The notes below the pieces were generated by a model, which had not been told where the DNA came from, ran no database searches, and saw only the letters and a program-made list of their open reading frames with translations. Both the position numbers and the translations under genes were made by a program. A stretch of DNA of 64,000 nt from Rhytidiadelphus loreus (Eukaryota; Streptophyta; Bryopsida; Hypnales; Hylocomiaceae): assembly GCA_947034895.1 (NCBI GenBank), contig OX344761.1:77189839-77253838 (forward strand). Direction: 5' to 3'. How positions within the stretch are numbered: position 1 is the stretch's first letter; every line of letters starts with the position of its first letter. Positions 6,408-56,230 of this stretch are shown one piece after another.

Positions 6408-6469
6408 TTATCCCGGGGAAATCTGGGAAGCATTACCCCCAGCTGCCCCCCATTACCCCGAGATGGGAT

Positions 6470-12787: not shown

Positions 12788-12813
12788 AATTGTTGACATT
12801 GGTTGTAAGGTAA

Positions 12814-27178: not shown

Positions 27179-27204
27179 AGTTGTTGGAACTGGTTGTAAG
27201 GTAG

Positions 27205-27492
27205 GGTAGGGTGCTCTAAAAGCAACCCTGTCCCTAAAAGCAACCTCTAATATAGAGGTACCTTTTGCTTTCTTCTATGTATCAATAGAGTGTTTCTTTT
27301 TAGTGACCATTGCATTTCAACTTCAAAATTTTGTAACTAGTTCCAAGAAGGTCCAAAAAATATGAAAAGACTTGAGTTAGATGCCAATTCCATTTTTCTT
27401 CATATAAAAATTTACTGATAATTGTTCCAAGGAGTTTAGCTTCCTCCAAATGCAAGCAGCTTAAAAGGTTGCTTTAATAAGAGCAGACTACC
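27205..27492. mobile_element. GGTAGGGTGCTCT MITE, complete copy
   Basis: Starts GGTAGGGTGCTCTAAAAGC. The inverted right terminus includes GGTTGCTTTAATAAGAGC and ends at GACTACC. 288 bp, non-coding. Target duplication not resolved. Confidence 0.62.
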
Positions 27493-31773: not shown

Positions 31774-31843
31774 GAATAGGTTATCATCTTAGAATGCCAC
31801 CAAACTTGAAGTAGTTTCTTTATTGTATGTTATAGATTTCAGT

Positions 31844-32302: not shown

Positions 32303-34174
32303 AGTTTCTTTGAAGACTTTAGTTTTTTACCTTTGAGAAGACATTTATTTTATGTTAGTTGTTTGTAGATTTCATTTTGGGTGTTGAAAATAGAGAAAGA
32401 AAAGATAGAAAGGAATTAATGAAATAGTTTTCCTTCTAGGTGAACTTGAAGTGAATTTTCTTTCTAAGATAAAGATAAAGAGATAGTTGTGAGGTCAAAT
32501 AAGGGCTCAATTATTGATGTGAGAGCTTTGGGAGTGAGTTAGGGGCTGACCCCACTTGTTTGGGTGGTTAGAGTAGAGATAAGGTGGAGAAAAAAGGGAA
32601 CACTATTCACCTTCTCTCCCGTTGTGAGTTTAGAAAGGCCCGAATGTTTGAGGGCTCATTGTGTTGTGAATTTGAAGTATTTTGAAATGAAATTTGGAGG
32701 TGTTGTGTATCATGGTGTGTAGTTTTCAAATTGATCTCACTTGCTTGATTTGGAGTTGTGAAGCAAAAGTTGTGCTAGTTTGAGTGGAGGGAGGTTTGTT
32801 GCCTTTAAAATTAAGAGGCAGAGACTTCGACCGACCATAAAAGACGGACAGGTTCTTGTTTTGCCATGAAATTTAGAGGGAGTGTAGGAAATTGTGTTAG
32901 CTTTTCATGAAGCTATCATTCGTTCTATTTGGAGTTTGTATGAGAAAGTTGTGAGTGTGGAAGCGAAGGAAGGTCTGCTGCCTTTCCCTTCTCAAGGCCG
33001 AAACTTTGGATGGCCATAGAGGTTGGACAGAGTCTTAGAATTGTATGAAATTTGGAGGAGAAGTAGATGATTGTTTTAGCTTTCCGAAAAGCTATCATTT
33101 AGTTCATTTGGAGTTATAGATCAACAAAGACACTCATCCAAAGATCAGCTTGGGAGTTGGAGTTGAAGGAGTTGGAAGACTTGTGTGTTTGTGTGTGTGT
33201 GGCTTGTGGCTTTGTAAATTTCATTTTATTGTTGCGGGCAGTTTGGTTCACACCAATACTAGCCTCATTTGGTGTTGTGGATGCGACGAAGTGGGGTTAA
33301 TTGCCCACATGGTCGAGACTTTTATGTTGTTCCCACTGGTGAGGCAAGTTTGCTGGTCACCATGGGTTTGAAATTTAGGATCCAATCCCTTGGACGGCTC
33401 AGCTCGTGGTCTGGCCGTCCCGTTTTACACGTCCGAAGCCCGTGGTTTCTTATCACCCTACCTTAACCCTTGGCCTATTTAGAAACACAACAGGATAGGA
33501 CAACGAGTAGCAGTTTGAAGATTTGAAGACTCGAAGATTTGAAGATTCGACAAGTTACAATTTATTTCATTCCCGAGCCATTTCTAGTCGCAGCCAAAAT
33601 CCTCGTGATTTCCCGAGGCAAACTCTCTCTACACGACATCGTGATGTTGCAAATGACCTAAGAGTGTAGTTTCCGGCATGTCTGGACATTGTACAATCTC
33701 AAATTGCCAGGGTTTTGGCAATATCTGCATTTTTGAAGACTTTGTGCACTACAGAATCTAGAATCCTCAAGACTTTCACTATGTTTGTGAAATCTAAAAT
33801 TTCCTAAGTTGTTTGTAAAATCTGAAATTTTGTAAGCTTTATTAACCTTTATGTGAAATCTGAAATTTTGTAACCATTGTGTGCCTTTGTGTGAAATCTG
33901 AAATTTTCTGTGTTCTTTGTATGTGGAAAATGAAATGTATGCAAAGTGTCACAATGTACCCAAAAGAGGCAGTAACTGCCTATTTCACACAATCACACAA
34001 TGGACCCTAATGGAGCCATGACCAAAAATTCCAACATACTACCACATGCAAAATTTCTCTAAAAATCACCATTAGGGCACCACAATGGACCCTAATCAAG
34101 TCATGACCAAAAATTTCAGCACAACCTCCAATCACCCCTGAACACATACAATCAACATGCATTGACATTAGAGT

Positions 34175-34600
34175 TTAACCCCTAAAGATTTTTTACTATG
34201 TTTTTACCAAAAACACTCCGAAACTACCATTTCTTGTACAAAGTACCAAATTTTAGAAAAAAAACATTTTTGAACACATCTAACCATAGGATCTTGTAGT
34301 ACTAGTTTGAGAAAATGTAAAAAAAAATTTAGAAATTTCCACCGTGTGGATTGTAAAATGTTAGCATTTGAATTGATAGAAATCAGTTTTTTGGCCCTGC
34401 AAAAAACAAGGTAGCTGCACTTTACAAGGTCACATTCTTAGAAAAAAATGTCCATATTGGTGGTGCTTCTTAGGATTCATTCTTCAAGACAAGTTGGCTA
34501 CATGTTTGAATGTTTTCAAATCATTTGGAATTGTACAATATATCGGAAAAATATAGTTATTAGAAAGAAATAGAGAATGATTCAAAATACTCAATTGTTA
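34175..34600. mobile_element. Decayed TTAA element, one end only
   Basis: Starts TTAACCCCTAAAGATTT. The inner sequence (CTAACCATAGGATCTTGTAG) matches the end region of 13,083-14,248 in reverse. The other terminus is not recognisable. Confidence 0.5.
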
Positions 34601-34719
34601 ACAATGTCGAAATCCGCCAATACCCGCCGTTCCCCGCCTGTACTGACCTGGCCAAGCGACTGCCAAGTCAGAGTTTTAGAAAAAAATATAACTTTGTTTT
34701 TCATTTTAAGGACTTACAA

Positions 34720-34721
34720 AA

Positions 34722-34761
<40 letters not shown>

Positions 34762-34763
34762 TT
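34720..34763. repeat. AT dinucleotide repeat followed by a T run
   Basis: About 11 AT units are followed by about 20 T. Simple sequence; no function inferred. Confidence 0.85.
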
Positions 34764-34909
34764 GAGAAAAAAAAAATGCCGGCGCGTTCGATGGGGGTCT
34801 TGGGGAACGGGGCTGAGAAGGACGCTGAAACGGCCCTCTAGCCCCCCGGAATCCCATCTAATGCATAATTGCCCACAAACTAAAACTCCTCATAACTTTC
34901 ATCTCATAA

Positions 34910-35777
34910 TTAACCCCTAAAGGACCAAACACCATTTTTTTCTTTTTTTTCTTTGAAGACTTCACACAATGTGTGACTGAGGAGTAGCTTTAAGGCACAA
35001 TAATTTTCATAACTTTCGACTACATGGTTCAAGAGTTATTGCATGATATGTGATTTTCAGTGTTCGACAGGCAATCTAGGCAGCCCAGAAAACTTCTTTA
35101 AAAAATCACTTTAAAAATAAATAAATCTGAAGTTTGTTTTCCAAGATAAATCATTCCATTTTGATTTATGAAATGAGAGTTATGAAGTGTTCTAGTTTGT
35201 GGGTAGTTATGGATTCCCTACTTGAAAATAAACTTTAGAGTCCTTTATTTAACTCAATTTTTTATATTTTTGGAAAAAAATAAAAGTATACGATGTAGAT
35301 TGTTTATTACTACATTACCACCGTTGGAATTGGAATTTTTCAGTTTTATAATTAAATTCTTAACAATTTAGTGTTTTGAATCACTTTGTACTTACTATTT
35401 TTTTCCTATATGTTGTGCAATTCTAAATGATCTAAAAATTTTCAAGCATGTAGCCACCTTGACTTGAAGAATGAATCGAAAGAGTAACCACCTTTTGGGA
35501 CATTTTTTCATACAAATGTGACCTTGTGAAGTGCAGCTGCCTGTGTTTTCACAGGGCCCAAAAAAGGATTTTTGTCACTTCAAACGTTAATATCTTGCAA
35601 TCTACATAGTAGAAAATTTTGAATTTTTTTTCGCATTTTTTCAAAATATTTTACTACAAGATCCTACAATAACATGTATCCACTAATGTTTTCCATCTAA
35701 AATTTGGTGCTTGTAAATGCAAGGGCACTTTTGGAGCATTTTTGGTGAAAATATAGTCTTTGACCTTTAGAGATTAA
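34910..35777. mobile_element. TTAA element, about 860 bp
   Basis: TTAA at 34910-34913 with CCCCTAAAGGACC; the other end is GACCTTTAGAGA before TTAA at 35774-35777. Same family as 11,854-12,787. Non-coding. Confidence 0.72.
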
Positions 35778-35778
35778 T

Positions 35779-36085
35779 CAAAATGGAATTATTCAAAAGC
35801 TTCCACATATACTTACATCTTGGAAAACCAATTTCAAATTTCTATTTCTTAAGAACTGATTTTTTAAGAATTTTTTGAGCTACCCAGGCTATCTTTAGAT
35901 CTTTGAAAATTATATATCATACAATAACTTTTTAACCATGTAGTCAAAAGTTATGAAAATTGTTGGGCCTTAAAGCTACTCTTTGGGCACATGTTTTTTG
36001 AAAATTTCAAAGAAAAAAAAAACATTCCATTTATAGTGAATTGCCCAAAATCACTATTGGTTGCCAATAAATGCAATTTGGACCT
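35779..36085. repeat. Inverted copy of the left part of the preceding TTAA element
   Basis: Reads in reverse complement like 34,915-35,110 (TTAAAGCTACTC, AACCATGTAGTCAAAAGTTA). It ends in TTTGGACCTT, the start of a family terminus, exactly where the 17-kb transposon begins. The large element thus seems to have landed in a TTAA-element cluster. Confidence 0.6.
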
Positions 36086-36098
36086 TTGAGAGAGAACA

Positions 36099-36155
36099 CA
36101 GGGTTGCTAGCGTGCGAGCCTGTGAGCCTGTGAGCCCATGAGCGGGAAATTTTTT
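36099..36155 (+). repeat. Left terminal and subterminal repeats of the 17-kb element
   Basis: GCTAGCGTGCGAGC is followed by three GAGC-type units (GAGCCTGT, GAGCCTGT, GAGCCCATGAGC) and GGGAAATTTTTTTTT. The inverse pattern at the right end suggests transposase-binding units (inference). Confidence 0.7.
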
Positions 36156-36448
36156 TTTGAAAAAAATGTATGAAGGACCTATCACCGTGGATAAAATTCA
36201 TTTTTCGAGTTCCAAAATATCAATTCATTATTGCAAAATTAAAGTCACCTACAGATATTTTTCACGATCTTCTGTTTCAACCAAAGTTGCACCATGCAAT
36301 TATACGTGATGGTTTAGGGGTCCCAAGCAACAAAACTGTAAAGCAAAATGTATCATGCTCAAAATGTAGCCATAAAACACACAAATCCAATCATATTCAA
36401 AATCAACACCCAATACAATAATTCACGAGATATATCAATCACGTGAAC

Positions 36449-39400
36449 CTAAGTCATAGTGGACACAGTTATAGAATCCTCGTCGGTAGATGACTCTGAA
36501 GTCTCTCCACCCTCGGATGCACTAACATCTAAGAACTCTAAAACATTCAAAGCATAAGTATCCCTACGCTTTTTTCTTTTAGAACAACCAAATTCTACAA
36601 ATGCTGTTGCCAACTTCTCTGCATAAACCGGCAAATCAAAAGACCTCTCTGGACTAAGAAGAAGCATTCGATTCTGCATCTTTGAATCTGTTGACATCAA
36701 CCCCTCGCGGCTGCAAAAATCCAGTAAAGCATGTTACAATCATGAATCATGTATATTTGTATGCTTATATTCAATTCAGATCTCAGAAAACTTACTTACT
36801 GGATTTAGTCTTCCGAGCAAATTTGTGCACCACGATGTTCATTGCATCCGGATCTTGAGACGCTGCAACCTCCGCAGAGTTTTCTTTTGTTACCACAGTT
36901 GAATTGGTCCTCTGCATGGGAAACAAAATTTCTTTGAAGATATCTTTGTCCTCCTCCAAAGCCACAATGTGGCGTCCAGTTCCACGACAAGCCGTAATCG
37001 ATGCACCTGATAAAACAATATGCAATTTATTAATTGCAAAATTTGTATTTGAAATAGAATTTCAATAAATAAATCATTGAATTGAAAACTTACCAGTAGC
37101 AGCAGTGCAGTCAAGGACTAAATCCCCTTCAATTGTTGTCCCTTCGATGAGAAACTGGAGAAATCTGGCGTCCTTCTCACGTGGTCCACGCCATGGTACT
37201 CGGTCATTCATCAACATTGTATCCTCCGTGATATAATTGATCAAGGTGTCGTCACGTTTGAGGTCAACTTTCGCTTTCTTCATGGCTTGTGTTTGATGGA
37301 AAGTGAATTTCGATTTCCCTCCCCGGTCAAGGTCTTTTACCAAGAGGGTGATCCCAAACTTCAGCGTCTACAAGAATTAAATAAAAAAAACCATTAGAAA
37401 TGAATAACATAGTATATTTTGCATGATTCTACTAAAATTAATAAGAAATGTTTGAAGTATACCGTGTTTGAAGGGTCCACGCCCGAAGTCAAGTGCACAC
37501 GATTAATGCCTAACCACTCTTTCTTCTTCACGATTGGATACACCTCACATAGTCCAGCAATGACACCCTTTGCGTTAGCACTCCATGAGTGAAATACCAC
37601 AACACAACCATGGTCCTGTAAATGTTTCTCTGCAAAATGAAAAGCCTCTTGAATTCCTTCATACTCTTTATCGGCGTTCCACTTTGGCACAAGATCTGTT
37701 GGAAACGACACCCCCGGGACGGGTAGATTTTCTTGGCAGTCAAATAAAATTAGATCTACTCCAGGCTGACAAGTCACTTCACCGCCGTACTTTTGAACTT
37801 TCTCAGCTGACAACTGCATACAAATATTTTGCCAATACACAACAATTAATATATATTAAAATCATAACATGCAATACAAATAATGAACTTGAACATTCAG
37901 AAGGTGTTTAATTACCTTCTCTAAAAACTCCATAAGATCTTTGTAGCATGTCCTCCCTTCTTTATCCTCGTTCTCCATCACATCATTGATGGACACGTTG
38001 AGAATCAATTCTGCAGAGTTTACCTCATCATCATCCCCAATGACGATGACTTCAGTGCCTTGCGTGAGCATTTCCTCAGTGACCTCAGGCAAAATGGCCT
38101 TCCTCTTCACTCCACTACGTGAGGCAGATTGCATTTGAGAGCCCTGGTCCACTGTTGAAGATACCGGAACTTGGTCAGTGCCTTCAACCTTCTTCTTCCC
38201 TTTGCCTTTTCCCTTTCCCTCCTTTTCAGCATCCTTCTCCTTCTCCGCCAACTTTGCCAAACGCTCAACTTCCTTCTTCTCCTTGTTTGCCCTGATTTCT
38301 TGTTCCTTGCTCTCTTTCTTCTTATCAGCAAGCATTCTACATGCAATAGCCCTCTTCTTTTGAATGTCTGATAGATCGGCAAACTCCGGCACCTCTAAAT
38401 CAATAACACCAAGGCCATCAAATGACTTCCGAAGCCACACCTCCGTTGGATGAGTGAATGTCACGGGACAATCCAAATACCACCCTCCTCTAGTAAGATT
38501 TGCAGTGGTAAACGTTCGAAGCTGACCCGCTGTATACATACACTCCGGTGAACTCCGATCCAACCATGAGGACAAGAAAGGTGGAAGGTCCTCTCGTAAT
38601 AAGGCTTTCTTTGCTACAAGCTCAAGCTTGAAGTACCTGACAAATGAACAAAGATGAAAACAGTCAATCACCATGAATTAAACATCTTTTACATAAAGCA
38701 CACAAATTATAAAACTTCTACATCAACATTTCACAACCATTTAAGAGATAACAAGAAGTGAATGACATCACAATGAAGTACATTATACTAAAAGAATTGA
38801 ACAGTTCTTATAATTAATCATAGTACCTCAACTTCTTATCCATTCTCATATTTGAATTTCCTCTCCTGAGTACACTAAAAAAAATCACTAGGAATTGTTC
38901 ATTCACAAGTTCAAAAATATTCTAAATTCAAAACTCGCATTCAAATATTATAATAATTTTATCATTCTTATTCATATTACAACATCATAGCGTGCATCTC
39001 CAGAACATGGATTAAATCATTGTAGGCCATGAAAAAAATATGAAAATAAAATATGAAAATTCGTGAGAATTTTCTAAGAAAACCGAAAGTGAGAGTACCA
39101 CAAGGTACTCCTAAAACCTCCGTCGGGTCCGACGGAGGTTTTTGGAGTACCTCATGGTACCCCTACTTTTGGTTACATCATGATATAAATTGAAGACACT
39201 ACTTGAAAATAATTAAATTTAACAAAAAGTAGAAATCACATTGCCTAGGAATCTCTAATAAAGAAGATAATAGAAAAAGGACAATCAAATTAATCTTACC
39301 GAAAAAGAACTCTTCGCACGGCAAGGTCCGATCCATCATAATTTGAGAAGGAGTCTGACTTCTTGAAAGAATTTGCCCCCTTCAAAAATGGCCCAAAGCC

Positions 39401-42400
39401 TTGCTCCCATATTTTTCTTCGCCATCCTTCAATGTATTGTGCAAGTGACTCTGGCTCAAGTGGGACATCCATGCTGATTTGAAGGTTGTCCTTGCTCACA
39501 ACGTTTTCAAAGTACTCTTGAGTGGCATCTTCAATCTGCAAGAGTATTAAGTAAAATCATATTCACAAGGTTATAATACATATGTAACAATCAATAAACT
39601 TGTGCACTACAAAAAGAATTGAAACGACTATGTGACATATGACATATTTAAATTTAAACATGATTGAACTTACTCCAGACCACCACACACACTTGTGTAG
39701 GAAGGGCAACAATTTCTCTTCAGAAACTGGCCTAGGTGGAAATTTTCGTGCTTCTCGAGAAGGCATGGAAGAATTCCACCATTTCAAATACTTCAACTTC
39801 TGGGTTGATGTCGTGTTACATGTTGCAACCATTTGTAGCTTTTCAAGTGTCATCTCTGGAACCTCATTGCAGGTCCAGTGCTTCTCAACCTACAAAAACA
39901 AATTGGTAAATCACCGGAGATTAAAAAAAATATATATATAATGAAAAGGTAAAATCATATATAACACTTACCTCCTCAAGAAATTCAGGACCTAGTGCCG
40001 GATTTGCCACAGTTAATAACTTCCCCATCTTCACGTACAACTTGGTAGACTTCTCCTTTGCTCCAAACCTCATGGCATTCGCAATCCCCTGATCACTCTT
40101 CTCCTCGAAAGGTGTGATCTCATTATATTTCCGTGCAGCACTATCCGCAGCTTGAGAAATCTCTTGCTGTAGTATTGTAAAAATATATCAATTTAAAATT
40201 CTCTTCAAAATCGAAACACAACAATGAACCGTGATTAATATAAATGAACCAAATTAAACATAATTATAAAATACGATCCTCACCCTGAAATTGAAAGCTG
40301 TAAAAACGTCGACAGGCATGGAGTACCATGTCTTCCTCCCAGCTTGGCTACCACAACGTTTCCTCTCAGAAGGTCTGAGCATCTCCATGAACTTTGCCAA
40401 TGGCAGTCGGCCATATTTTTGGACGCGGTAGAGTGTGTGCACCAAGTTCGTCTTCACATGAGAATCCTCGGTGGACCTAAAACAAAATAATTTCGTTTAG
40501 GCAATGAAGTCTCTGAAAAAAATCCAGTCCACAAAGATCAAAGTTTGGAAAACAATGCTCGATTCAACTTACACTTTAATGAAGAAAACTCACTTATTAA
40601 TGTCATGCATGACTTACATGACCAATTCGATTCTGCCTTTTGTTTCAAGAATAATGCAGTCCCCCGAGATGTGCCAGTTTGGGTCAACAGGATAACGCCA
40701 TGTAATATGACTCATCCATGCAATGCGACGGTGATTTCCGTTGCACACAAAGAACTTGAGGTTCTTCAGAAACTTCAGGTCAGGGTTCGATTCTACAAAC
40801 TTGTTGAAATCATCATTCGCTTGCTTCCACCAAGGGTCCCAACGATTGACCTCATCCTCTGTGAACTCAGAACTCTCTCCAGCCTCATTCGTAGTAGAGA
40901 CATAGAACACCGCTGCTCCCTCACGGTAGCCGTGAACAAACTCTTGCTCAAGCTTCAATAAGTCAGAAGACAGCGTAGGCCTTACCATAGGCATTGGGAT
41001 GAGTCTACAAAGTGGAATTCAAAGTCTTGAGTGTTTGTCGGGTTTCATTCTCAAACTTGCGATAGTGGCTACAGAGTCCACCTTCTGCAATCGCCGTAGT
41101 TCATCCTCAACCAACTCTTTCTCCTCGTCATCATCGTCAATGTCCTCAACTTGAAAATCTCTGTCATCTTCAGCTCCAATCTCTGGTTGTTCTGTCTCGT
41201 TAGTCCCAGGTGTTTCTTGTCGTTGTTCGTTTTGAGACAAAATGATTGGTGACTCATCCACCTGCATATTCCAAAATAAATATTAAAATGTCACTTGCAA
41301 ATAAAATGAAAACTTTTCAAATATGAAAAATATTCTAAGCTCTACAGAAAATAGTAAGTAACACATTCCAACAACAACATCTCCCAAGTAACAAGAGGCA
41401 TTCAAATTATATAAATCGTACACCAATTAATTATGATTTTAATTTGAAACGTTTTTTGAGATAACTCATAGAAAAGATATTACATTAACATTCAATCAAT
41501 GTCAATACTGCCCTCTGAGTCCGAACAAAGGTGGATCAAAACCACCTCATGCCTACGTGTAGGTGCACTACAAACACGTTGGCAAGATTTAGGAACCTTC
41601 GGGCTTGAAAGAGAAACCCAATCATGCCTACGTGAAGGAGCACTACAAACGCATTGGCAAGATTTAGGACCCCACGGGCTTGAAATAGACACTGATGAGT
41701 TTGAGGCCGAGCTACACTCTTCTTTAGAGCTATACTTAGTTTCAGAGCTTTCATCAGAAAATACTGGTAGCCTTCTCTTCCTATTCTTCGAGACACTAAC
41801 ATGACTATGCATGGGTACCTCCAATTGATCTGCAGCACGATCGCATGCGTCTAAAATATCCCCTAGACTTACCACGTCTGTCTCATCAACTGGCAAAGAC
41901 TCATTGCACAAATCCTCCTCTTGAACAGTAGGAGTTTGGGGGATTGATTTCTCCACAGCCTCCACAACCTCGTCTACTGCGGTAGTCACCATCGATGAGG
42001 AAGCCTCAACACATTTCTCTCCTATAACTTCCATCTACAAAATTTACAAAATTTATATTAGTATATTTTTCATTAATAGCAGTAAAAAATAATAGTATAT
42101 GACCACAAATGATAGTAACCATGAACATTGCATATGAATACAATCATTTTTAAGAAGATCAATGATCGTTTAATTGTACAAGAATTACAATGCTAGAATT
42201 GAAAAGAATATTTGGAGTCGCTTAACTTCAATAATTTGAATTGAATAATAATACAAATTATCTTACATCATTAGTACTCATTCATACAGTACGGTGTCTA
42301 AGAATATTGAATGTAGTCAAACTCAAACACTTTAAATGTTTATCCCTCACTTTTATGTTTACTCAAAGTACGTAGAACTAATCCGATTATGGAACCCATT

Positions 42401-45143
42401 TTCCAAAATTCATTAAACAACTAAGACTACATGAGAAGCCAACTTTAATACTCTATCTGAAACATATAAACTTATAGATGTAATGAATACATATAGCATT
42501 ATCTCAATGAAGTGGACTTTAACTAAAACCATAATGTACTTCAAACATGTATAGGAGAACTATAAAATAATTTAAAAATATAACTTATCATGTAATAGCC
42601 TTCTACCTATAAAACATTTATAAATAAGGCACTTCATAATTTGCAATGAAGTTTAAATACATTCCCTTCACTCTATTCTGATTTCAAATAGGATAAAATC
42701 ATTCATGCTCTACTCAAATATCAAACACGAATCTCCTACATGCTTAAAATGTTGCAACACTTGCGTAAGCAAATAAATGATTTTCACATCAAATATAGTT
42801 GCTTCATTTGCAAGATTTCAATAAATTCAACGTGCTTAGTATTGCTTCAAGAATATTGATACTTTAATAGGAATACTTTTATTCGTAGGTCAATTAGAAT
42901 TTCATTTGAAGAAAATGATTTCTACTGCATGAATAACTTAACAATATGATTGCTCACAGACTTGGAAGAATAGTATTTTAAAAAAATGGCGTTACATTAA
43001 ATTTCAAAGCACATAATCATTAGCATATAAAGCAAATTAAATTGTTAAGGAAATTAAGTAAATTCTCTTAAAGTTGAAAAATCTCTATGTATTGACCAAT
43101 ATCAAGGGTTCCATGAGGTCCCCAAAAAACACCCGTCGGACCCGACGGAGGTTTCTAGTGATCTTCACGCTACCCTTGAAATCGGTCAATACGTAGGGAA
43201 CGAGCAGTATTTCATACTAAGGTTTTAAAGTCCTTCTCTCAATAAAGGTCATAGATGTTAGCAAAGGAAATATACTAATAATCTTCAAAAAATGAACGAA
43301 TAAAGTATAGAATTGATAATTTTATACATAAATCTTGGCTCATCATTAAAAGGTTAAATTCAACCTTAACGTTCTAATATAGAATTGTTGACAAGTTTGT
43401 ACATGAAAATCTACGTTACGGATTTTGACTTTAAGTTTTTTCAACCTCTTCTTCACTATGGCAATCGGGTTTCAAGAAAATAGTTCAAGTATAATCACTT
43501 CAACTATCAAAACTAATACAAGTTCTTTTAATTTTTTCGCAAGAAAATAAAAATAAAAAATAAAATAAAAAAAATAAAAAAAATAAAAAAAGTCTAATTA
43601 CACTAACTGACTTTTTCTATTCTGCTGTATTATCTCGATCAAAGGTCAGGTCGACGGCCTCTGTGATCAGGATTAGTTTGTTGAAGGAAAAGAACATACT
43701 GGAGGCGACCGCTGCGACAGGGAGGATGGGAACTTCGGGGGGAGAGCCTTATCGTAATCTTGACACGACAGGATGTGAGAGTGGATTAATCAGTCCAATT
43801 GACCGATTTTGGGGGTAGCACCAGCTTCCTCCCAAACCAGCGTCGGACCCGACGGAGGTTTTGGGGGAAGCTGGCGCTACCCCCAAAATCGGTCATTTTT
43901 TAAGAACGACTTGAAATTTTTTTTAAAAATGGCCTCTCATTTCCGCTGTCTAAATGAAAATTCTTTCTGATTTATTTTACAGTCCTTCCGGTTGATCATT
44001 AATCCTTGACCTCACGGTGATAGCTACTGTGATTGGAGAGAAGCGGATTGGCACAGCAGCGATGGGCGTTATTTATCTCAAGAATGACGAACGAAGAAAC
44101 AAGGTAAGCAAGATTGGCGGTTCTTGCCTAAACAACAATACTTTACAGTTATCAGCATCTAAAAGACTTTTAAGAGAAGAGATAGATTTTTTTTTCTAAT
44201 GTTCGTCTTCTGTGACCGAAAATGGGGGTAGCGGAAGCATCCCCTGAAACCTCCGTCGGACCCGACGCTGGTTTGGGAGGAAGCTCCCGCTACCCCCATT
44301 ATCGGTCACTGCATGTTTTTAAAAAAAATTGGCTATATGGCTTTCTAATCGCACCTCTGACTTTGCTATAACTGAACTTCAGTAAACTGAAAACTCACGT
44401 AGGAGGGTCTTGATCTATCAACCTGAAATCAAAATCTAAAATGTTTATGTCGGTAGAGTCGGGCTAAAAGGGTTCGGCACTGTCGGGCTAGAAGGGTGCG
44501 GCACAGTCGGGCTAGAAGGGGAGCAGTACAATCGGGCTAGAAGGGGAGCAGCACAGTCGGGCAGGAAGACTGGCGGCACAGTCGGCTTGGCTGATGTCGT
44601 TTTCTACTGGAACGAAGATCCCCTGGACTAGAAGATCGAATAATACTTGTTTATTCAAACAAAGACAGAAGCCTTGTCGACCTGTGGATTTCGGGCATAG
44701 CTCCAGTGCTTCGAGAAGGATCTGAGATTCTCTTCTGATCTTTTAAAAGACGCACTAGTTGACTTTAGCGATACAGACTCACCAGGATGCAACGAGAAAA
44801 ACATTAGAGCGACAGAGTGGATGTATATCTCGACAAGCACAGAACAGGTGACAGGAACCGGAGATCGATAATGAAGACGTGCTGTTCCGGGCTAATGAAA
44901 TGAAGATGTGTTGAACTAAACTTCACAGGACTAGCAACGCCCGATTTTCAAATCCTTCAAATTCTCTAACTACAGCAATGCAAGAGTAAAAAACAAAGGT
45001 CTAATTTATAATACCTGAGACTGTGCCGTTTGGTGCTCCTCGTCAGGTGAGTGGTCCTCTTCGCTTTGCTGTGATTCCTCACGAATTCGACGACTCCGCG
45101 TAAGTCGAGTTGAAGTCACATCACCTTCTCGCTGTGTTGACAT
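36449..45143 (-). CDS. ParB-like / N6-N4 DNA-methyltransferase-like protein, multi-exon
   Basis: Exons with agreeing phases: 45143-45015, 42034-41546, 41261-40618, 40476-40284, 40166-39972, 39889-39674, 39535-39300, 38636-37916, 37813-37463, 37367-37094, 37006-36796 and 36710-36449 (over 1,200 codons). The N-terminal part is acidic and Ser-rich. Exon 41261-40618 carries FVHGYREGAAVFYVS and, near 40,705-40,745, NGNHRRIAW, like the ParB/Srx signature. Exon 38636-37916 has a long Lys/Glu coiled region. The C-terminal part follows the beta-class methyltransferase order: DLILFDCQEN (motif IV, normally DPPY) near 37,740, a GPREKDARFLQFLI segment, then VLDCTAATG and RGTGRHIVALEED (motif I region). 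Phage and plasmid proteins join ParB and methylase domains in this order. The altered motif IV suggests lost or changed catalysis. One in-frame TGA occurs at 41,021-41,019; translation could instead start at ATG 40,994. Confidence 0.72.
39081..39174. repeat. Element hairpin 1 (94 bp)
   Basis: Two 46-nt arms around a 2-nt centre: CCTCCGTCGG, GT, CCGACGGAGG. Outer arm AACC(G/A)AAAGT. It lies in the intron between 39,300 and 38,636. The centre GT (AC in the others) marks the opposite orientation. Confidence 0.85.
43091..43190. repeat. Element hairpin 2
   Basis: Arms start ATTGACC; centre CCGTCGGACCCGACGG. The middle of the arms is partly mismatched, more decayed than hairpins 1 and 3. It lies in the long first intron of the ParB/methyltransferase gene. 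Confidence 0.8.
43801..43894. repeat. Element hairpin 3 (94 bp)
   Basis: GACCGATTTTGGGGGTAGC at the left is repeated inverted at the right; centre GTCGG-AC-CCGAC. Only a few mismatches over 46 nt per arm. Forms an inverted pair with hairpin 4, 0.4 kb away. Confidence 0.87.
44212..44309. repeat. Element hairpin 4
   Basis: GTGACCG arms with GGGGGTAGCGG. Its one asymmetric mismatch (CTCCG against CAGCG) is the mirror of that in hairpin 3. Confidence 0.85.
44458..44590. repeat. Minisatellite, 24-25-bp unit, about 5.5 copies
   Basis: Unit starts GTCGGGCTAGAAGGG and ends CGGCACA, at 44458, 44482, 44506, 44531, 44556 and 44581 (last partial). It is inside the first intron of the ParB/methyltransferase gene. 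Confidence 0.85.
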
Positions 45144-45454
45144 GATGAATGACAAAGTAAGTCAGTAGATTGTCAATGGAAAGCAATAAGGTGTCCCGCA
45201 AGTATATGCATAATTTGGATTTGTTTTGTTTCCTGTGCTACTATATACTCTCTTGATGCGTCCCTACGACTTGTTGAACCGCCGACCCAACTTCATCACA
45301 AGCTTCGCGCCGATTGCGTCCCTCCAATCTTGGCCCCACAGTTGTTGTCGACTGCTACAGGTTCGGTGGAAAAGTCTCCGACAAAATCGGAGGGCTGGAA
45401 GGGAATCGAGAAGTTGCTGGCAATCATGCTGCAAGTGGGACCGCATTCTCTGGT

Positions 45455-45726
45455 GGCAGCATGGCTACTGCATGCGAGGAGTAAATCGTCCATGCCATTT
45501 TTGGCGATTTTTGGCGGCCATTCTGAGAAAGTGCTAATTTGATCCTGGATACTAAGCAAAAACTGCTAATTCGATCCGGAAATCTTCACAGGCAGCATGG
45601 CTACTGCATGCGAGGAGTAAATCGTCCATGCCATTTTTGGCGATTTTTGGCGGCCATTCTGAGAAAGTGCTAATTCGATCCTCGATACCAAGTAAAAACT
45701 GCTAATTCGATCCGGGAATCTTCACA
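45455..45726. repeat. Tandem duplication, two 136-bp units
   Basis: Two nearly identical 136-bp copies (45455-45590 and 45591-45726), each starting GGCAGCATGGCTACTGCATG, with the first bases of a third. The near-identity points to a recent event. The open frame across the first copy is probably incidental. Confidence 0.88.
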
Positions 45727-47043
45727 GGCAGCATGGGTCATTTTGTTCTGACTAACGGAAACGGGAGATATACGGCTACGTGTATGGCGTTAAGCATTCC
45801 CATGCATTATGACAACAAGGAGAGGAATAAATTCTGATTTTAGATTACAATCGAATTGGCCAATTTTTAATACTTCATACCTTGTGCATGATGAATAATA
45901 GAAGCGGATCTGCACTTTTCTACGAATCTAGTCGGTCCAAATTTCTGAGTACTTTTAATTCAAAAGCAGAGAATTTGATGATTTAGGCATTTAAATAGCA
46001 TGTTTAACAATTATAATCCTATTTGTATTGCTGCCTATTGCTACATGCTTATAGGAAAGCTGCTATGTCAATTTTATATTTTCTATAATGTTCAATAACG
46101 TTTAGTAGCTCACTATGAAAATTCAATGGAATTCATCCATTGAGGGTGTTCACTGTATATTTTTCTTCCTAAAATTCCAATATACATAGGCAAGTATAGA
46201 TGACTCTTCAAATTTGAGACCATGTAAATTTAGAAATTAAGAACATGAAGGCTAATCCAAGAAGCTAGGCACCGCATGTATAGACTTGAAGGAGATGGAT
46301 TGTTTTATCTTTAACATAATAATTAATCATTCATCTAGAATAGTGACATCTACATTTAAAGCCCCATTTGTGTGATTAGAGTTCAAATAGGACATTATTT
46401 ATAGTCATGATTCAACGCCTTTAATAACCAAATAATTGAAAGGCACGTAAATTATTAGACTCTTTAAATATTTTCATTTTTTATCAGGACTGTTATAGTT
46501 TTTAAATAAAAACTTTGTACATGAATACTATTATTTTGATTACTTTTTAGAGAATCCATTTAAATGATGCATAAACAATCATGACAAAAATCAATTTAAA
46601 ATGACTTATATAAAACTAACTATGTAAACGAATGAGAACTTTGAAATGTACTATAATTTTTTAAGATCATTAAACAGACATGGATTCTTAATTTAGTCGT
46701 ACATTCCAAATGTTATCCAACTATGGTGTACATCATGGTACGATTATTAATAATATCTTCTAATGCAAAATAGGGTTTAAAGGACAATGACACTCACTTT
46801 TATTATGAAGGTGTTAAAAGAAGATGCCTAATAATGATTGGCAGGTTAATCATTTTAACACTATTTATGATTAACGTGAAAAGTATATATATATACGTAT
46901 ATGGATGAAGTTTACAAGAATAAAACATATTTTAAATGCACAAAAAGGAGTCTAACCTCATGACCTTGTCCTAATTCAAATTTTAGGAATAGCAAATGAA
47001 TTTAGGAAAAACCAGAGTGTAAGCTTCTTATAAAAAATAACTT

Positions 47044-47314
47044 ACATGTGGAACTCCTTTCGATGAAACATGTCGTCCGATACCTCTACCCTCCAGCATG
47101 TCTTGTACCGAATCTATGTTTTGCACGTGAACATTCTCATCCTCGCCAGTACCTCCATCTTCAAAGTGAAGGACCTTCCGCAATTTGGCCGATGCTGACT
47201 GACCTGTCTTTGACAATGCCTTCTTTCCACGATTCATTCTAGATCTCTTGATTGCCTTTGGAGATGAGAAATACAAAGAAAAGCGCCTCTTACGCTTCTT
47301 AGAGAGCTCTGGTA
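47044..47314 (-). CDS. Basic, nuclear-signal-rich exon, perhaps 5' part of the ParB/methyltransferase gene
   Basis: Minus-strand exon between acceptor TTTTCTAG and donor GTAAGT. It encodes a Lys/Arg-rich segment (ELSKKRKRRFSLYF, RSRMNRGKKALSK) and an acidic patch. It ends in phase 0 (VPH). Skipping to an acceptor at TCAACACAG inside 45,143-45,015 would keep frame (REGDVTSTRL), so it may be an upstream exon of that gene. Its own 5' partner was not found. Alternatively it is a separate small gene of the element. Confidence 0.42.
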
Positions 47315-47772
47315 CTAGAAAAGAAAAACTATGACTACTTGTTAGCATGAGTGGAGAACATATTCTATCAAATCTAGCAGAGTGAAATACAAATGCTAGT
47401 CGTCTACCAAAGCATCAAAGACATTGTGGTATGGACAATTGGACTCACCTTATATGTCTTCCTAAACCGTGTGCAATTCTCCTAAAATGCGTTACCCTAT
47501 ACTAGGTTGTTGACAATTCTATCCACAAGAAATTGAGGGCTACTAAACTTGACAATGACTTCAATGTGCAGTCAATTTTCAAAATAAAGGTAATAGAAAT
47601 GGCACTCTGACCATGACCTCTACCTACTAGTACTGACAGTCTTCAATGAATTTGTCTAATGTGCACTATTTTGGCAGATTATCTTTCTGGTAAAGTCATT
47701 TACTATTGAAATCCTAATGTAACCAGACTCATTTTAAACATTCCTCACATACCCTCAATAGGGATTTACAAT

Positions 47773-48104
47773 ATGCCTGACGCTTCCGCTTTATGCTTGT
47801 ACAATATGCCTGACACATAAGCACTTAGCATTTACAATTTATGCCTGACACAGCCGCACTAGGCATTTACAATATGCCTGACACTTCTGCTTTAGTCATA
47901 TACAACATGCCTGACATAGCCGCACTTTGCATTTACAATATATGCCTGACACAGCCGCACTAGGCATTTATAATATGCCTGACATTGCCGCTTTAGTCAT
48001 ATACAACATGCCTGACACAGCCACACTTAGCATTTAGAATATATGTCTGACAGAGCCGCACTAGGCATTTACAAAATGCCTGTCACAGCCGGAGTTTGCA
48101 TTTA
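47773..48104. repeat. Iteron-like array: 101-bp higher-order repeat of three ~34-bp units
   Basis: Ten ATGCCTGACA-type units. Matching subunits recur exactly 101 bp apart (47773, 47874, 47975, 48076). Several units contain ATGCCT and AGGCAT as inverted arms. The array ends about 230 bp before the transposase ATG and lies between the two divergent genes, where control or binding sites of the element would be expected (inference). Confidence 0.85.
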
Positions 48105-48333
48105 ATGCATTCATAAATGGCTATGCTAATGGTGTGTTTGGCATGTGGCATAGTCAAGGCTCTATTAAGTGATGGAAGTTGTTGAAAGAGTTCATTCCAT
48201 CCTGTCTTTCACTTCTTGTAGTGTTCATAGAGAAACCACGTAATGCAAGTGCTTGTGTAAGTTGAATTCTCCATGAGTGTCACTTTGAACTGAATTCTTT
48301 GTTATCAATTTTCGTGAGTGTCTATTGTTAAAG

Positions 48334-51300
48334 ATGGCTTGCATCCGTGTAGATGGTCATGATGTTCCACTTGTGTTTCCAGTAGATGATGGAGATCGAA
48401 CTACGGTGACGAGCCATTTACTTCACGTTCACTTCAGGTTCATTGAGTCATCCATCTATGTCGAAGAAGAAAGGAAGTCCGAATCAGGAGAGTTGCAGCA
48501 GTTAGTTCCGGTAGTGAAGTCAATAGAAGAAGGAGCACACTATTGGTACCTTGCAGCTAGAAACTATCGAGCTTACGGTTTGCCTTTGTCCATGTTAGCC
48601 GCTGCAACAGAGATTCGTAGTGGACAATCTGATCCATCTACAGTAGATATGCCGTATGTCACTCACTCAATATCAGGAAGTCCACCTCCTGAAGTGTTTC
48701 ATGTCCTCCGTAATAGTGCGATTCTTCGGACAGTGAAGGTTGAGAAACTTGATCCTATTGTAGAATTGTCTAGCGAATCGGAAGGAGAGTCCCTTGATAT
48801 GACACTTCATAAGCAAGCATGCTCAGTTCTAGGTACATCAAATGAAATCAACATTTTGAAATCATTTTCAGGTACCCTTTCGAATAGCCCTAGCCAGTCT
48901 TTCTTGTCTCGCCCTCCAGTGCATCTGAACATAGTCAACTGAGTTAGCATAATGGATAGTTTGAGGAGACTAGCCAGTATGCATCGCTCCAGGAACGAAT
49001 TGTCAACGATGGATCTGAGTAGCATGAAACACCACCGCGTGCAATATCTTCCACCAGTTTTTGACGGGAATGTCATCTTCGAGCTGCCACCATGTGGTTC
49101 ATCGTCGTCTTCATCGGCAGCTAGAAACTTGGAGGGAATGGACAAGCGGTATGACGGACATCCGTGGTGCAAGTTGGTGACCACCAACATTCACAACTCC
49201 GAGAACCTGAGGTTTCATAAGTCTTATTGTGTTGGTCATCTTGCTTGTATGAATGAAGAGTGTGATTACTTGAAGAGGTCTGGAAAACGCAATGAAACGG
49301 AGTGGACTGGTTATACAACTTTTCCTTTTGTAGTAGGAGAGATTCCTCCTAAAGATTGTACTCTCCTTTGCAAGGTTTGCAAAGTAACCCCTACATGTCT
49401 CAGTACATGTAGTGGTAGAATTTACTATTGCTATTCCGACAATCCAAAAATGAGTAGGGCCGCTATTCATTTTGGAGTTCATGCTCATCCGGTAGCAAAA
49501 GGCATGTATAGAGATTCTACGGAGAAGATTTGTGAAATCATTGCAGAGCAAGTGGCTAAGACACCCAAGGCTACAAACTCTGCAATAGCATTGTCTGCTA
49601 GCAAGGACTTTCTAACTAACTATCTATTTCACAACGGAGAGGGGGAGAAAGAGATGTTGAGGGGCGAGGAACTAGATGAGGTCATGGATCGCTTCCAATT
49701 CTTAAGCAGTCCAAACATACGGAATGTAATATCTTCATTTCGTTCAAACAATCGTGGAGGTGTCATTGACAATATCATGACTATGAAGGAGTCGAAGTTC
49801 GAATTCATACATGACAGTGTCTTCCCTGGTCAAGGCAAAGAGAAGGTTTACATTTTTAAGATGCTCACGGAAGGACCTGGTAGTGGAGTGGATTTGGTGA
49901 AGCGTATGCAACCCGGAGGTGATCTTCAAAATGGATGGATGATGTTTGACCACGTTAAGCGCGTGAATGAGTGGACAACAATGGCTTGCCATGTGTATGA
50001 TCCTGAATACAAGAAAGTGATGACAATTGCAACATGTGATATGCAATCCGAAGATACTGAGATCCAAGTGCAGTTTTGGAATTCTTTGAATACTGTGATG
50101 TCACGATATGGTGTGGATCACCCGAACTTCAAAGGGTTTATGGCAGATAGCGCTATGGCTAATTGGAATGCGGTGCGTATCGTTTACGGTAGTGGTTTGG
50201 CCAATGAGAAGATGGAAAATTGTGAAAGAACATGTTTGCTACATTGGACTACCTCTCTACAGAAGCACACGCAGAAATACATCAAGGAAGCATTCCAGTC
50301 GCAACACAGTATGCTATGCAAGCAATATAAAGATGCAAAGACTATGGAACAAGCAGAGACACGATACTTGGCAATTCGGTCATGGTGGTTGTCATCTGGA
50401 GCTGCGAAAGATGATGCACTCGTTCACTTAGACCATTGGCTAGCCTTTTGGCATTTTCGTTACTGGCAATGGGGAGGGTTCATGCAAATGGTAAGTACAA
50501 TTGTTTTTTACAAATAATTTGTTTGCATTGTAGAAACGCATTTGTAAAATTATTTTCTTTCATTCTTCCTACAAGTAAGGATTTTTTAGTTTGAGCAAAG
50601 AAATTAAGAGCACCAGTTAGTTTAAAAAAATATATGTATATTTTTTTTTTCTGCCCTCAAACCAGAAATGGGGGTAATGGAAGGCACTTCCAAAACCTCC
50701 GTCGGACCCGACTGAGGTTTTTGGGTTCCTTCTCGGTACCCCTGATATTGGTTCGTGGAATGTGAAAAAAAAAACTAATTAGAAAAAAAAAATTATGGAC
50801 AAGTGAAGTCTGAAAGTGACTGTAAACTTTGCTACTCTGTAGAAGGGTATTTTGTAGAAGATAATTTTTATTTTATTTTGATGTTTTAGCATTTGCTTGA
50901 CATGATTTCAAATTATGTGAAATGACATATAAAAATTTCCTAAAAATTTGGTATGATTAGTGACTTATAAAATTGAATGTGAAAATTAAAAATACTCTGT
51001 GGATGCATTTGGAGGATTTAAGTTTGGAGGAGATGGCGGATATGCCATCGTGCAACTTGTCAGAAACAGTGCATAACAAGTGGCTTCAAATGTCTGGAAA
51101 TCGCGGAAACAATTTGTTCGACGCCACTTGCGATGACAGTATTCGTGCATGGATGCAAATGACCAATTATCGTACATACTTGAAGGGACATGCATCTGGA
51201 TCTGGTCCTTCAAAGGGGGAATTGAAGTTGAGAGCTGCAAGACGAAGCGGAGACCCTAAGAAGATTGCAGAGGCGCTGAATACATTACCTGGAAGTGAAG

Positions 51301-52403
51301 GTGTAGGAAGTCGTATACCGCATTTAGAAGGAGAAGAAATCTTTGGAAGCACAAAGAGGAAGTTGGATGTACCAATTGGCGATGCTGGAGACTCACATAG
51401 ACCGGATAAAGTGAACTTCTCCCAACCTCGTGTTCGAACGAGGTCCACAACGGCTTCAATTGATTCTTCTGGGGACAAAGGTAAACTCCCTGAAATGAAC
51501 ACTTCGAGACATGTGGCGGTTGCTTTTGAAAGTGATTGCGACACTTCAAAGTGGCATATAGCTAGAATCAACCACAAATCAAATGCAAAATGTTCTGCTC
51601 AGCAACGGGGTTCAAATGTGAAGTGCACTGCCAAAGTTGCAAGGGGACGGAAGGGAACCCCTGCTCCCACATATCGTGGTAGAAAAGAAGATTATGGAAG
51701 TAAGCGGGAGGTGGTGGTTGACTTCTGGTTTTGTGGTGACGATATTGAGCGATGTGTGAAAGGGAGCAAGCGCAAGTGGGTTGTAGATTGGCCAGAGATA
51801 CCAGAGGTCTGGCCTGTTTTGACTGGAACTGACTTGAGCCGGGATGAGACTTTATTATTGCAACATGGTGGATTTCATCTCCAGGAGCGTCCTGTACTAT
51901 CACCACGTCGACTCTTCAATCTATCTAACGTATTCAAGAGTGTGTTCTATGATCAATCACCTCCAGCAGATGCCAGTGTATATCCAACGGTTCGAAACAA
52001 TCGAACTATACGACGAATTGCAAATGCACCAACTATAGAACAACGGAACAAGTGGGAGAGTGCTAGAAATGTCAAAGGAGAAATTTTGGGAGTGACATTG
52101 TTGCCTTTCCCGGGACTAGGTGCCATAGTGTCACTCCAGACTGGATTTGATTATAACAAAAACGTGTACCGAATCACAGTCGGAATGTACCCCTCTTGTA
52201 CATGCCCGGACTACACAAACATGGCTATTTCAGCCATTGGAGGCCGTCAGCAATACGTAAATTGCAAGCACTTGTACTACTTGTTTAGGTACTTTTGCAA
52301 GATGGACATCCATGAGGATAAATTCATTCATGCACCAAGTTTTAGCTTCAACGAGTTGAAGCTTCTATTAGTTAAAGCAGGGATCATCACAATTTCAGAG
52401 TAG
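48334..52403 (+). CDS. Mutator-like transposase with GCM-type zinc finger, DDE core and SWIM finger
   Basis: Exons 48334-48871, 48974-50490 and 51015-52403 join in frame (about 1,147 aa). The first intron is inferred (GTACCC to ACTAG); without it, a TGA at 48,940-48,942 splits the frame. The last acceptor (GGAG/GATTTAAG) is the only one found that keeps phase 0. Residues about 240-350 resemble a WRKY/GCM zinc finger (HPWCKLVTTN, KSYCVGHLAC, CKVC, HFGVHAHPV). The core has D about 505 (MMFDHVKRVNEW) and D about 571 (FMADSAMANWNAV), followed by the C/H motif ERTCLLHW, as in MULE transposases. CTCPDY with CKH near residues 1080-1106 is a SWIM finger. It probably binds the element ends and catalyses excision and insertion. 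Likely nuclear. Confidence 0.82.
50660..50752. repeat. Element hairpin 5
   Basis: AACCAGAAATGGGGGTA at left, inverted copy at right, centre CCGTCGGACCCGAC. It lies in the second intron of the transposase gene. Arms are more decayed. Confidence 0.8.
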
Positions 52404-53160
52404 CGTTGGCTACATTGCCTTATGTACTTAAATCGTATTGTATTAATTTACATTTCTTCATTTGGGTTTTTATTAGTTTTTCTTCCCATCATGTTTTTCA
52501 ATTTCTTATTGTTTTTTCCCTGCATTCTCCAATTTAGGCTCCATATTTTATTTTTATTTTATTCTGTTTACATTTCATCACTAAGTTATTCATGTTTTCT
52601 TTCAATTTTTGGTTTATTTTTTATTTCGTTTCTTGTTTGTAAAAGGGCAGAAAAGTAGGGTGATAATGTTTTGGGCATGAGTTCTAGTCCATTCATGAGG
52701 TTCAAATATTCTTGTGAGAGGTTTGTAGAACTTGAATTAGGTAGCCACGGTTTTGAATCGTACTAAACTGCCCCAAAATTAAACTAGTGGACAGAGTGTC
52801 TAGGTTATAGTTAATCATTAAATCAATGTTCATGTAGAGAAGCATATGTGGAGGTTAGGCAACACTGACTTCTGTTTTTGTGAGTGTTACTTATTTAACA
52901 TATGATATTATATTCTTGAAAAAATTTGTAAGTGGCAAGACATGAGAATTTCAGTTGTTAAACTCAAAGCTAAATTATGTAACACAAATTGAAGTTGCCA
53001 AACTATTGGAAGAAGAAATTCGCAAACCTTTAAAAAGAAATCTCAAATACACGGTAATAGGGTAAGCGGTCATAGGTCCCCAAAAAACTAAAAATAGTAA
53101 GTTTTCTGTATAATTTTCCAAAAAAAAAATCCAAAGGAATTTTTGGGTAAGAAAGTTGAA

Positions 53161-53245
53161 AAAAAAATATTTCAAGGCTCCAAGCTCACAAGCTCCATGC
53201 TCGCAGCTTACAAGCTCGCCGCTCCAAGCTCGCACGCTAGCGTCG
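53161..53245 (-). repeat. Right terminal and subterminal repeats of the 17-kb element
   Basis: Read on the minus strand: GCTAGCGTGCGAGC, then repeated GAGCTTG/GCGAGC units over about 60 bp, then a T-rich run, mirroring the left end with extra units. Confidence 0.7.
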
Positions 53246-53258
53246 TTGAGAGAGAACA

Positions 53259-54239: not shown

Positions 54240-56230
54240 TGAAAATTAACGAACGTCGAAAACTCGAATCTTCACTTAATCTTCCGTTGGCCTATCCTGT
54301 GGTGGCTCTATAGGAATAAAGATAAGGGTGTGTGATAAGAAACAAGTCATCGGACGGGTAAAACGGGACGGCCAAACCATGAGTTGGCCGTCCAAAAGAT
54401 TGGCTCTTAAACTTCAAACCCACGGTGACCAGCAATCGTGCCTCATCGGTGGGAACAACAAAATGTGACCATGTGGGTGATCAATCCCACTTTGTCACTA
54501 CAAATAGAAAATGGGACTACACTTGGAAATCCACATAGCCCGCAACTTAGTTTAAAAAACAGAATTGAAAAACAATGAGCCTCCAAAGCCGGCTAGGAAT
54601 AACTAGAAAAATAACAACGGACCACAAGACACAACACACAAAGGTCCCAAGTGATGGACCTTCAAGTCTTCTTGTCTTCAAGTTTCATTTCTCAACTCTT
54701 GAAGTGTTCAAAAACACTTGAAGAGAATTCCGAAACTCCCCAAACTATATCTAATACTCAAATTACTCCCACAGATGCCTCACAACTCCAAATTTCAAGT
54801 GCAATAACTTTTTAGAAAGCTAATGAAATAATCTAACACTCCTCCAAATTTCATCTCTTTCTAAGCTACTATCCAGGCGTTATGGCCGATCAAAGTTTCA
54901 GTCTTCCCTCTCTAGTTTTAATAGACCTTTCCACACTCAAAATAACATATCTCCCTCAAAACAAATATAAACCTCAAGTGTAATAGCTTTTTGAAAATCT
55001 AACCCCATGATCTGCAACTTCACTAAATTTCATTCAAATCTAAACTACTTTCCATTAGTTATTGGCCTCTAAAGTCTCGGCTCCTTTTAGCCGGGTCGCC
55101 ACAAACTTCAAAACTTCAAACTATCATAACTCTCTCAATAAGAATCCAAATCAAGCTTGCAAACACAATTCGGAAAGGTAATTGCACAAGGAACAATCTC
55201 CTCAAATTTCATTTAAAAAAATTCAGTACACAACAAGATATTTTCCTCTCCAATTCGGATTTTTCCCTCCCTTCACATGCACACACTTCCTAACCTCCAC
55301 ACACAAAACTCTCAACATCTTTTCCTACTTTCCCTTCCCATCAATAGTGAGGGGTGGGGCACATCAGCCCATGCCCCTACTAAGACTCCACTTAAGATTC
55401 CAACTACACCCCTATTCACACTTTCTCAACTCCAATTTTTCCAAGGTTAGTTTATTAATACTAACTTCTCTTCCAACAACTATAATCACACTTTGAAATT
55501 ACTGTAAAATACTCAAAATATAACAACAAGTGTTAACATCCAATAGATGTCTATTAGAGGTAAGAAAACTAGAATTCCAATCGAAGCTTCACTCCATCTG
55601 TAGAAACTTGAGGATGCGTTTGACGGTGGCAGCAACGTAGTCTGCACGATCCGCTTTGGTTAAAGGATTGACATGCCCCTCTAGCCAACATTGGTGGCCA
55701 TGACTCCCTTTTATAGGCTTGACCATACAATAATATTGGTCGATGTTTAAACCTTCAAAGCATCCTTCAAATGTCACTTCACGGCTACCGGGCTCAACAC
55801 ACCCAACTTGTAACAAGATCACCAAAGCTCGAGCATTCGATTGAAGGTTCCCGCGCCACCGCTGTTCTACACGAGGTTGCTTTAGCGGTCGAGAAGGTCC
55901 AGCTTCATCTCGAGAATGCCCATATGACAATGCAAGATCATGTTCCAGAAGAGGCTAATCCGATAGTTGTGAAAGTGAAAGCTCAAATTTAGCCTCTTCA
56001 TCTTGGGACTCAGAAAAAACCCTCCAATTCGACATTCTAAATCTAAAGTGAAAAAATACATATTACTAATGGAATTCAATGAAGCTCTAAGGCAAACCTG
56101 TCATTTTAAATAGATGTCATGCACCTCAACAGAACAACGTCACTTTGAAGCTTCTCAACGAAATAGTGTCAACATGAAATTACTCAATAAAATATATTAT
56201 AATATATTTTTACATTGTGTACAAATGTAC
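54240..56230 (-). repeat. Inverted repeat arm, right (short-gene region)
   Basis: Counterpart of 31,640-33,540 in the opposite orientation. It includes the interrupted gene at 56,035-55,589 and the CCCGTTTTACCCGTCCGATG-like block near 54,355. No target duplication was found that pairs the two arms. Confidence 0.62.
55589..56035 (-). pseudogene. Inverted copy of the short unknown gene, with an in-frame stop
   Basis: ATG at 56,035 (MSNWRVFSESQDEE) is in frame with the conserved C-terminal part (ALVILLQVGCVEP to KRILKFLQME, stop at 55,591-55,589), but TAG at 55,957-55,955 interrupts it after about 26 codons. A downstream ATG at 55,930 would give a 113-aa product. It is about 80% identical to the 31,844 copy over the shared part. 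Confidence 0.6.

Follow-up and report, generated by a model that had tools for sequence, protein, structure and literature searches.

What does a gene derived from a DNA methyltransferase do inside a plant transposon? The question is raised by a 64,000-nucleotide stretch of Rhytidiadelphus loreus DNA (assembly GCA_947034895.1, contig OX344761.1, positions 77,189,839 to 77,253,838 of the forward strand), which is referred to as the window and whose own numbering is used below. The window looks like land-plant nuclear DNA: its genes are spliced at GT-AG introns, and part of a leucine-rich-repeat receptor lies in the left flank. Neither the Rfam scan nor the tRNA scan gave a match in it. Within it lies a DNA transposon of the Mutator superfamily, about 17.15 kb long, in which a transposase gene is accompanied by a divergent partner gene. 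The interval 36099-53245 is very probably a Mutator-type transposon whose partner gene derives from a methyltransferase. As a whole, a Mutator transposon with a partner that regulates its own element, like the VANC protein of Arabidopsis VANDAL elements, appears on balance to be the probable reading of the locus.

The two ends of the element carry the same 14-bp sequence, GCTAGCGTGCGAGC, at 36106-36119 on the plus strand and at 53228-53241 on the minus strand, identical at 14 of 14 bases. With up to 2 mismatches allowed, these terminal inverted repeats (TIRs) had no other match in the 64 kb (0.03 matches expected; two were also reached in 1 of 100 shuffles). Repeats of the GAGCYTG type run inside both ends, where 6 of the 14 occurrences of the 7-mer in the window are found. 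On the left, GAGCCTGT-type 8-mers follow the TIR to about 36143, and on the right GAGCTTG-type repeats occupy 53177-53238 (minus strand). Just outside, a 13-bp direct repeat, TTGAGAGAGAACA, is present at 36086-36098 and 53246-53258 and is probably a target-site duplication; when 25-base segments from the 64 kb were paired at random 20,000 times, the number of shared bases rose no higher than 11 and reached 13 in no pair. With a 13-bp duplication the element covers 36099-53245, with 7 bases before GCTAGC at the left end and 4 at the right end. With a 10-bp duplication (AGAGAGAACA; 36089-36098 and 53249-53258) the element covers 36099-53248, the ends become symmetric with 7 bases before GCTAGC on each side, and the 3 further identical bases would be due to chance. 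Mutator-like elements (MULEs) have target-site duplications of 8-11 bp and TIRs of 14-500 bp (PMC6446971); the 10-bp duplication falls within the 8-11 bp. The inverted termini and the flanking direct repeat that a first-pass annotation of the window had claimed were thus both recovered. The observed/expected CpG ratio was 0.71 in the element vs 0.53 and 0.37 in the flanks, which is compatible with recent arrival and with low methylation alike.

The transposase gene spans 48334-52403 on the plus strand and encodes an IS256/Mutator-type DDE RNase H-like transposase. Its first long exon (48334-50490) contains the N-terminal region, a cysteine/histidine-rich (GCM-like) region that is a candidate GCM/WRKY-type zinc finger, and the first two putative catalytic Asp residues. 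The second long open reading frame (ORF; 50964-52403, exon start approximate) contains the candidate catalytic Glu (NLSETVHNKW) and, at the C-terminus, a SWIM-type CxC..CxH motif (CTCPDY..YVNCKH), which was spotted by eye and had no Pfam match at E 1. The ISCth4 transposase (6xgx), from a bacterial insertion sequence that we take to belong to the IS256 family, was 10% identical over the aligned part. An in-frame TGA was found at 48940-48942, a place at which P0002, an 80%-identical relative, has an open frame. The transposase of the first-pass annotation is present, with a SWIM-type motif, but is not intact. Scans of IMG/VR with the transposase and the ParB-like exon of the partner found no relative, nor did a scan of GTDB contigs.

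The partner gene occupies 42034-36449 on the minus strand in 11 exons whose phases join at GT-AG junctions, with GTAAG or GTGAG at 8 of the 10 donors, so that the second long divergent gene of the earlier description was borne out, possibly with a twelfth exon. The idea of two adjacent unrelated genes was unnecessary, since the exon phases join. The possible twelfth (first) exon, predicted by the model only, is at 47237-47046 (MNRGKKALSK..GVPH, then GTAAGT); it is in phase with 42034, would add an intron of 5,011 nt and would extend the frame to 1218 codons. All the following exons are on the minus strand. The segment 41492-42034 is either an exon, spliced at 41873 in the model, or a 180-amino-acid (aa) ORF that could represent an alternative partner isoform; a 75-bp repeat at 41547-41689 forms two in-frame tandem copies (25 aa each) in this ORF, which the splice model shortens. 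Next come the exon with the ParB-like motif CNGNHRRIAWM (40618-41261), four further exons (40476-40284, 40166-39972, 39889-39674 and 39535-39300) and a lysine/glutamate-rich exon (37916-38636). The C-terminal part is encoded by the exon holding the motif IV region by position (FDCQENLPVPGVS; 37463-37813), the exon with the methyltransferase-type motif X/I region (VLDCTAATG; 37094-37367), the exon in which motif I continues (..ASITACRGTGRHIVALEED..; 36796-37006) and the last exon, with an acidic, Ser/Glu-rich tail (36449-36710). The only interruption of the 1218-codon frame is the in-frame TGA at 41019-41021, in the exon with the ParB-like motif. A residue stands at that position in 16 of 16 aligned relatives (picked from the best 120 of 263 matches), which are called open frames and therefore cannot show stops there. 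As the transposase and the partner have one in-frame stop each, the present copy probably no longer yields both full-length proteins.

The full-length partner protein had no match in the protein collection (0 among 7528 candidates), probably because gene callers split the exons, as exon-sized queries gave 263 matches. These were obtained at E ≤10 from 301 candidates with a query that combined the ParB-like exon with the methyltransferase exon. The best 120 all had E <1e-38; 5 of them match the methyltransferase half, and the remaining 115 were assigned to the ParB-like half, 114 by alignment and P0144 by coverage only. The transposase and the partner both belong to families present elsewhere.

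The C-terminal part of the partner descends, judging from sequence similarity, from an N6/N4-type DNA methyltransferase. When its exons were joined, it matched the Pfam family N6_N4_Mtase with 24.1 bits (E 4.1e-5), below the cut-off of 26.7, and the partner as a 1009-residue protein scored 17.8 bits (E 0.0034); single exons gave no methyltransferase match in Pfam. A PHROG match at E 3e-8 covered residues 178-233 of the 246 in this part. The Pfam and PHROG matches are confined to the motif X-I stretch, where the similarity to N6/N4 enzymes resides. Among PDB sequences, DpnA and CcrM matched the C-terminal part at E 0.04-0.1, and a tblastn search against phages returned 267 records at E ≤0.1, with 18 of the best 20 annotated as DNA methylases or methyltransferases.

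The MAFFT alignment with five phage proteins is compatible with a motif IV placed before motif I, which is the beta-class order. At motif IV the five phage proteins have D-L/P/V-P-Y, and at motif I they have DNCMGSG, DPFAGSG or DPCAGSG; the partner in the window has DCQENLPVP (aligned as D-CQEN-LPVP) at the place of motif IV and DCTAATG at motif I. No contiguous D/N/S-P-P-Y/F/W tetrad is present in the partner, where motif IV was assigned by alignment position only. An FxGxG-type S-adenosylmethionine (SAM) loop is likewise missing at motif I, with CTAATG instead, a change seen in this copy alone, no relative of the motif I exon having been found. The block FDCQENLPVP is the same in six of six sequences, the window and five short proteins (P0088, P0132, P0133, P0139 and P0184; 52-65% identical to the window), which were collected by shared 5-residue words, a procedure that favours identical blocks. 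None of the five has a Pfam match, and the exon itself had no match in Pfam and a single one in the PDB, to an unrelated entry (E 0.08). Decay of this copy was rejected as the origin of the block because the five relatives carry the same letters, which makes it a family trait; its equation with motif IV is positional. We favour a domain that has probably lost methyl transfer and may serve in recognition over one with shifted or unknown chemistry.

The first-pass interpretation of the locus was supported in part, and the ParB half of the name that it proposed for the partner is tentative. The stretch FFxCDGNHRRxAWM resembles what we take to be the ParB/sulfiredoxin signature, a likeness that is unconfirmed, and GNHR is found in 17 of 17 aligned members of the ParB-like exon. 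No ParB match was obtained in Pfam and NCBIfam scans (17 members), among PDB sequences or in fold searches, where a null result does not prove absence. The structure model of the exon was poor, with a predicted local distance difference test (pLDDT) score of 63, and its alignment included 5 wrong rows, from the other exon, among 118. A 253-aa part of the partner starting in this exon gave two plasmid matches, at E 2 and 5. The ParB name is accordingly kept as a lead.

The pairing of the two genes probably recurs elsewhere, as suggested by the contigs on which the matches lie. Contigs of exactly equal size occurred three times (15,646, 185,737 and 583,271) among 72 transposase and 119 partner matches, their sameness being taken from the equal sizes and the partner side being the best 120 of 263; this corresponds to 3 of the 24 transposase matches on contigs longer than 15 kb. 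The smallest would place both genes within 15.6 kb. On the 15,646 and 185,737 contigs, identity to the window is 73-76% for the transposases and 60-61% for the ParB-like exons. On the 583,271 contig the transposase is just 48% identical vs 60% for the ParB-like exon, so its two genes may belong to different elements.

The non-coding parts of the element contain five palindromes of about 96 nt and three tandem arrays, in agreement with the hairpins and iteron arrays reported in the first-pass annotation. The hairpins are H1 (39080-39175, in the 663-nt partner intron), H2 (43093-43188), H3 (43800-43895), H4 (44213-44308) and H5 (50659-50754, in the transposase intron). Their folding z-scores range from -4.8 to -14.4, and 30-42 of the 48 bases of the arms are complementary. 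When the five were compared, 16 of 46 pairs were changed on both sides (shuffled mean 10.4; at least 16 in 7 of 500 shuffles). Of the cells, 83.5% paired, against a mean of 76.3% in shuffles and 36-51% when the partners were slid. The most constant parts include the core around CGTCGG(A/G)(C/T)CCGACG and the ACC/GGT ends. The tandem arrays, all outside modelled exons, are a 25-bp array of 5.2 copies (44457-44585) and a 136-bp repeat of 2.1 copies with 96% matches (45455-45736), both in the would-be first intron of the partner, and a 33/68/101-bp array (47764-48104) just upstream of the transposase gene.

For nested foldback or miniature inverted-repeat transposable element (MITE) insertions as the origin of H1-H5, unrelated to the function of the element, we judge the chances to be even. 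Each hairpin forms a palindrome complete in itself, has TGACC/AAACC ends and lies in an intronic or non-coding position, and no H5-like hairpin was seen by eye in the intron read-through of P0001 and P0016, which indicates that at least H5 is not carried by every member of the family. Such an origin is opposed by the location of all five within the 17.1 kb of the element, for which uniform chance over the 64 kb gives about 0.0014, with no core found in the other 47 kb of the window, and by the lack of a common target-site duplication at H1-H5.

If the partner regulates its own element, the methyltransferase-type domain, without the standard catalytic and SAM-loop letters, would have been kept for the recognition of DNA or of methylation. 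The partner would bind the non-coding repeats of the element, namely the tandem arrays and possibly the hairpin cores, and this binding would keep the transposase promoter active or unmethylated, as VANC does in Arabidopsis VANDAL elements. The transposase would cut and paste at the short inverted ends, with the GAGCYTG repeats as its putative binding sites. The anti-silencing role, drawn by analogy, is tentative. It seems unlikely, in addition, that the element represents a second, independent plant anti-silencing system, in which a bacterial/phage-type methyltransferase would have been acquired, lost its catalytic motif, been rebuilt around FDCQENLPVP and come to recognise the arrays or parS-like palindromes to keep the element active. 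Two results weigh against the overall interpretation: among the 20 phage matches listed, only H1, at 22% identity and E 0.02, extends as far as the motif IV region, and in the transposase comparison an unrelated protein scores near ISCth4.

The partner might instead be an accessory transposition factor, like mudrB or mutB, that binds ends, palindromes or hairpins and aids synapsis or integration of a 17-kb element without a role in silencing. Extra genes with suggested accessory roles are known in MuDR and Mutyl (PMC6446971), and the five constant-core palindromes, with their pairs changed on both sides, could be binding sites; as the hairpins are not at the element ends and H5 is not fixed in the family, we find this alternative rather doubtful. 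An active DNA methyltransferase with altered chemistry or specificity, marking element DNA, is improbable. The recognisable methyltransferase stretch and the unusual block common to the five relatives would suit it, and the pairing of D-CQEN-LPVP with phage D-LPY makes a shifted motif IV possible, against which stand the missing tetrad and CTAATG in place of the GSG of the five phage enzymes. Least probable is a captured host gene, a Pack-MULE-style passenger without function for the element, since frequent capture of host sequence by plant transposons, Pack-MULEs included (PMC6446971, PMC13317346), and the in-frame stop of the partner are set against a long frame broken by that single stop and against the 263 matches (best 120 examined) and equal-size contigs (one of 15.6 kb), which suggest a multicopy, element-borne gene.

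The flanks of the element are themselves repetitive. Long parallel duplicates, mostly 85-91% alike and spaced by about 14-17 kb, lie at 1-13,067 and 17,566-27,461. The left flank also contains the receptor fragment at 4743-5123 (LRRNT_2, 22.3 bits, E 1.7e-4) and an ORF at 14686-15198 that by eye resembles a kinase tail and has no Pfam match; the duplicated region is perhaps a tandem receptor-kinase cluster. Two inverted duplicates (31,833-33,505 and 54,285-56,045; 76-80% alike) each hold a similar ORF without a Pfam match, and it is apparently the spacer separating them that received the element. These inverted repeats were considered as the true ends (31.8-33.5 / 54.3-56.0 kb) and set aside because they are 76-80% alike and because the boundary is better accounted for by the 14-bp ends with their flanking repeat. 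Another family of dispersed repeats occurs, in both orientations, near both sides of the element (34,174-36,020 and 56,748-57,086).

When the element is compared with known systems, the beta-class methyltransferases CcrM and DpnA align weakly with the motif X/I stretch of the partner. These enzymes keep a DPPY-type motif IV, whereas the partner family shows none. The bacterial fusion of a ParB domain with an adenine methylase, for which nicking activity has been reported, has the same domain pairing; the present partner, by comparison, has an unconfirmed ParB part and a non-standard catalytic block. Extra genes of MULEs are already known, including mudrB, mutB, vanB, vanC and Ulp1 domains (PMC6446971, PMC13317346). 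MuDR of maize (mudrA/mudrB) and Mutyl (mutB) resemble the present element in combining a Mutator-type transposase with a second gene; the present ends, with 14 to 21 bp, lie at the bottom of the quoted 14-500 bp range, and the word methyltransferase does not occur in the MuDR/Mutyl paper (PMC6446971). A full-text literature search, which extended to the accessible sections of PMC6446971, PMC10398659, PMC5735166, PMC13317346, PMC5512222 and PMC3671162, with Repbase entries and subscription papers outside its reach, yielded no MULE with a ParB- or methyltransferase-like partner.

The best functional parallel is VANDAL21/Hiun, whose layout agrees with that of the present element: both are Mutator-type, carry extra genes and have tandem repeats, some in introns and others just ahead of the transposase gene. 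VANC binds motifs in the tandem repeats upstream of VANA and in the introns of VANB and VANC (PMC5735166) and induces loss of methylation in VANDAL21 (PMC5735166, PMC10398659). Binding of repeats by an extra protein is a feature of VANDAL and would apply to the present element by analogy. VANDALs are called non-TIR MULEs (PMC13317346), whereas the present element has TIRs and a partner that derives from a DNA methyltransferase. VANC of the Arabidopsis VANDALs is the worked-out case in plant transposons of a protein that lifts the silencing of its own element. In the element described here a DNA-marking enzyme seems to have been turned into something else inside mobile DNA, and the combination, within one element family, of a Mutator transposase and a remodelled DNA methyltransferase offers a directly testable second case.

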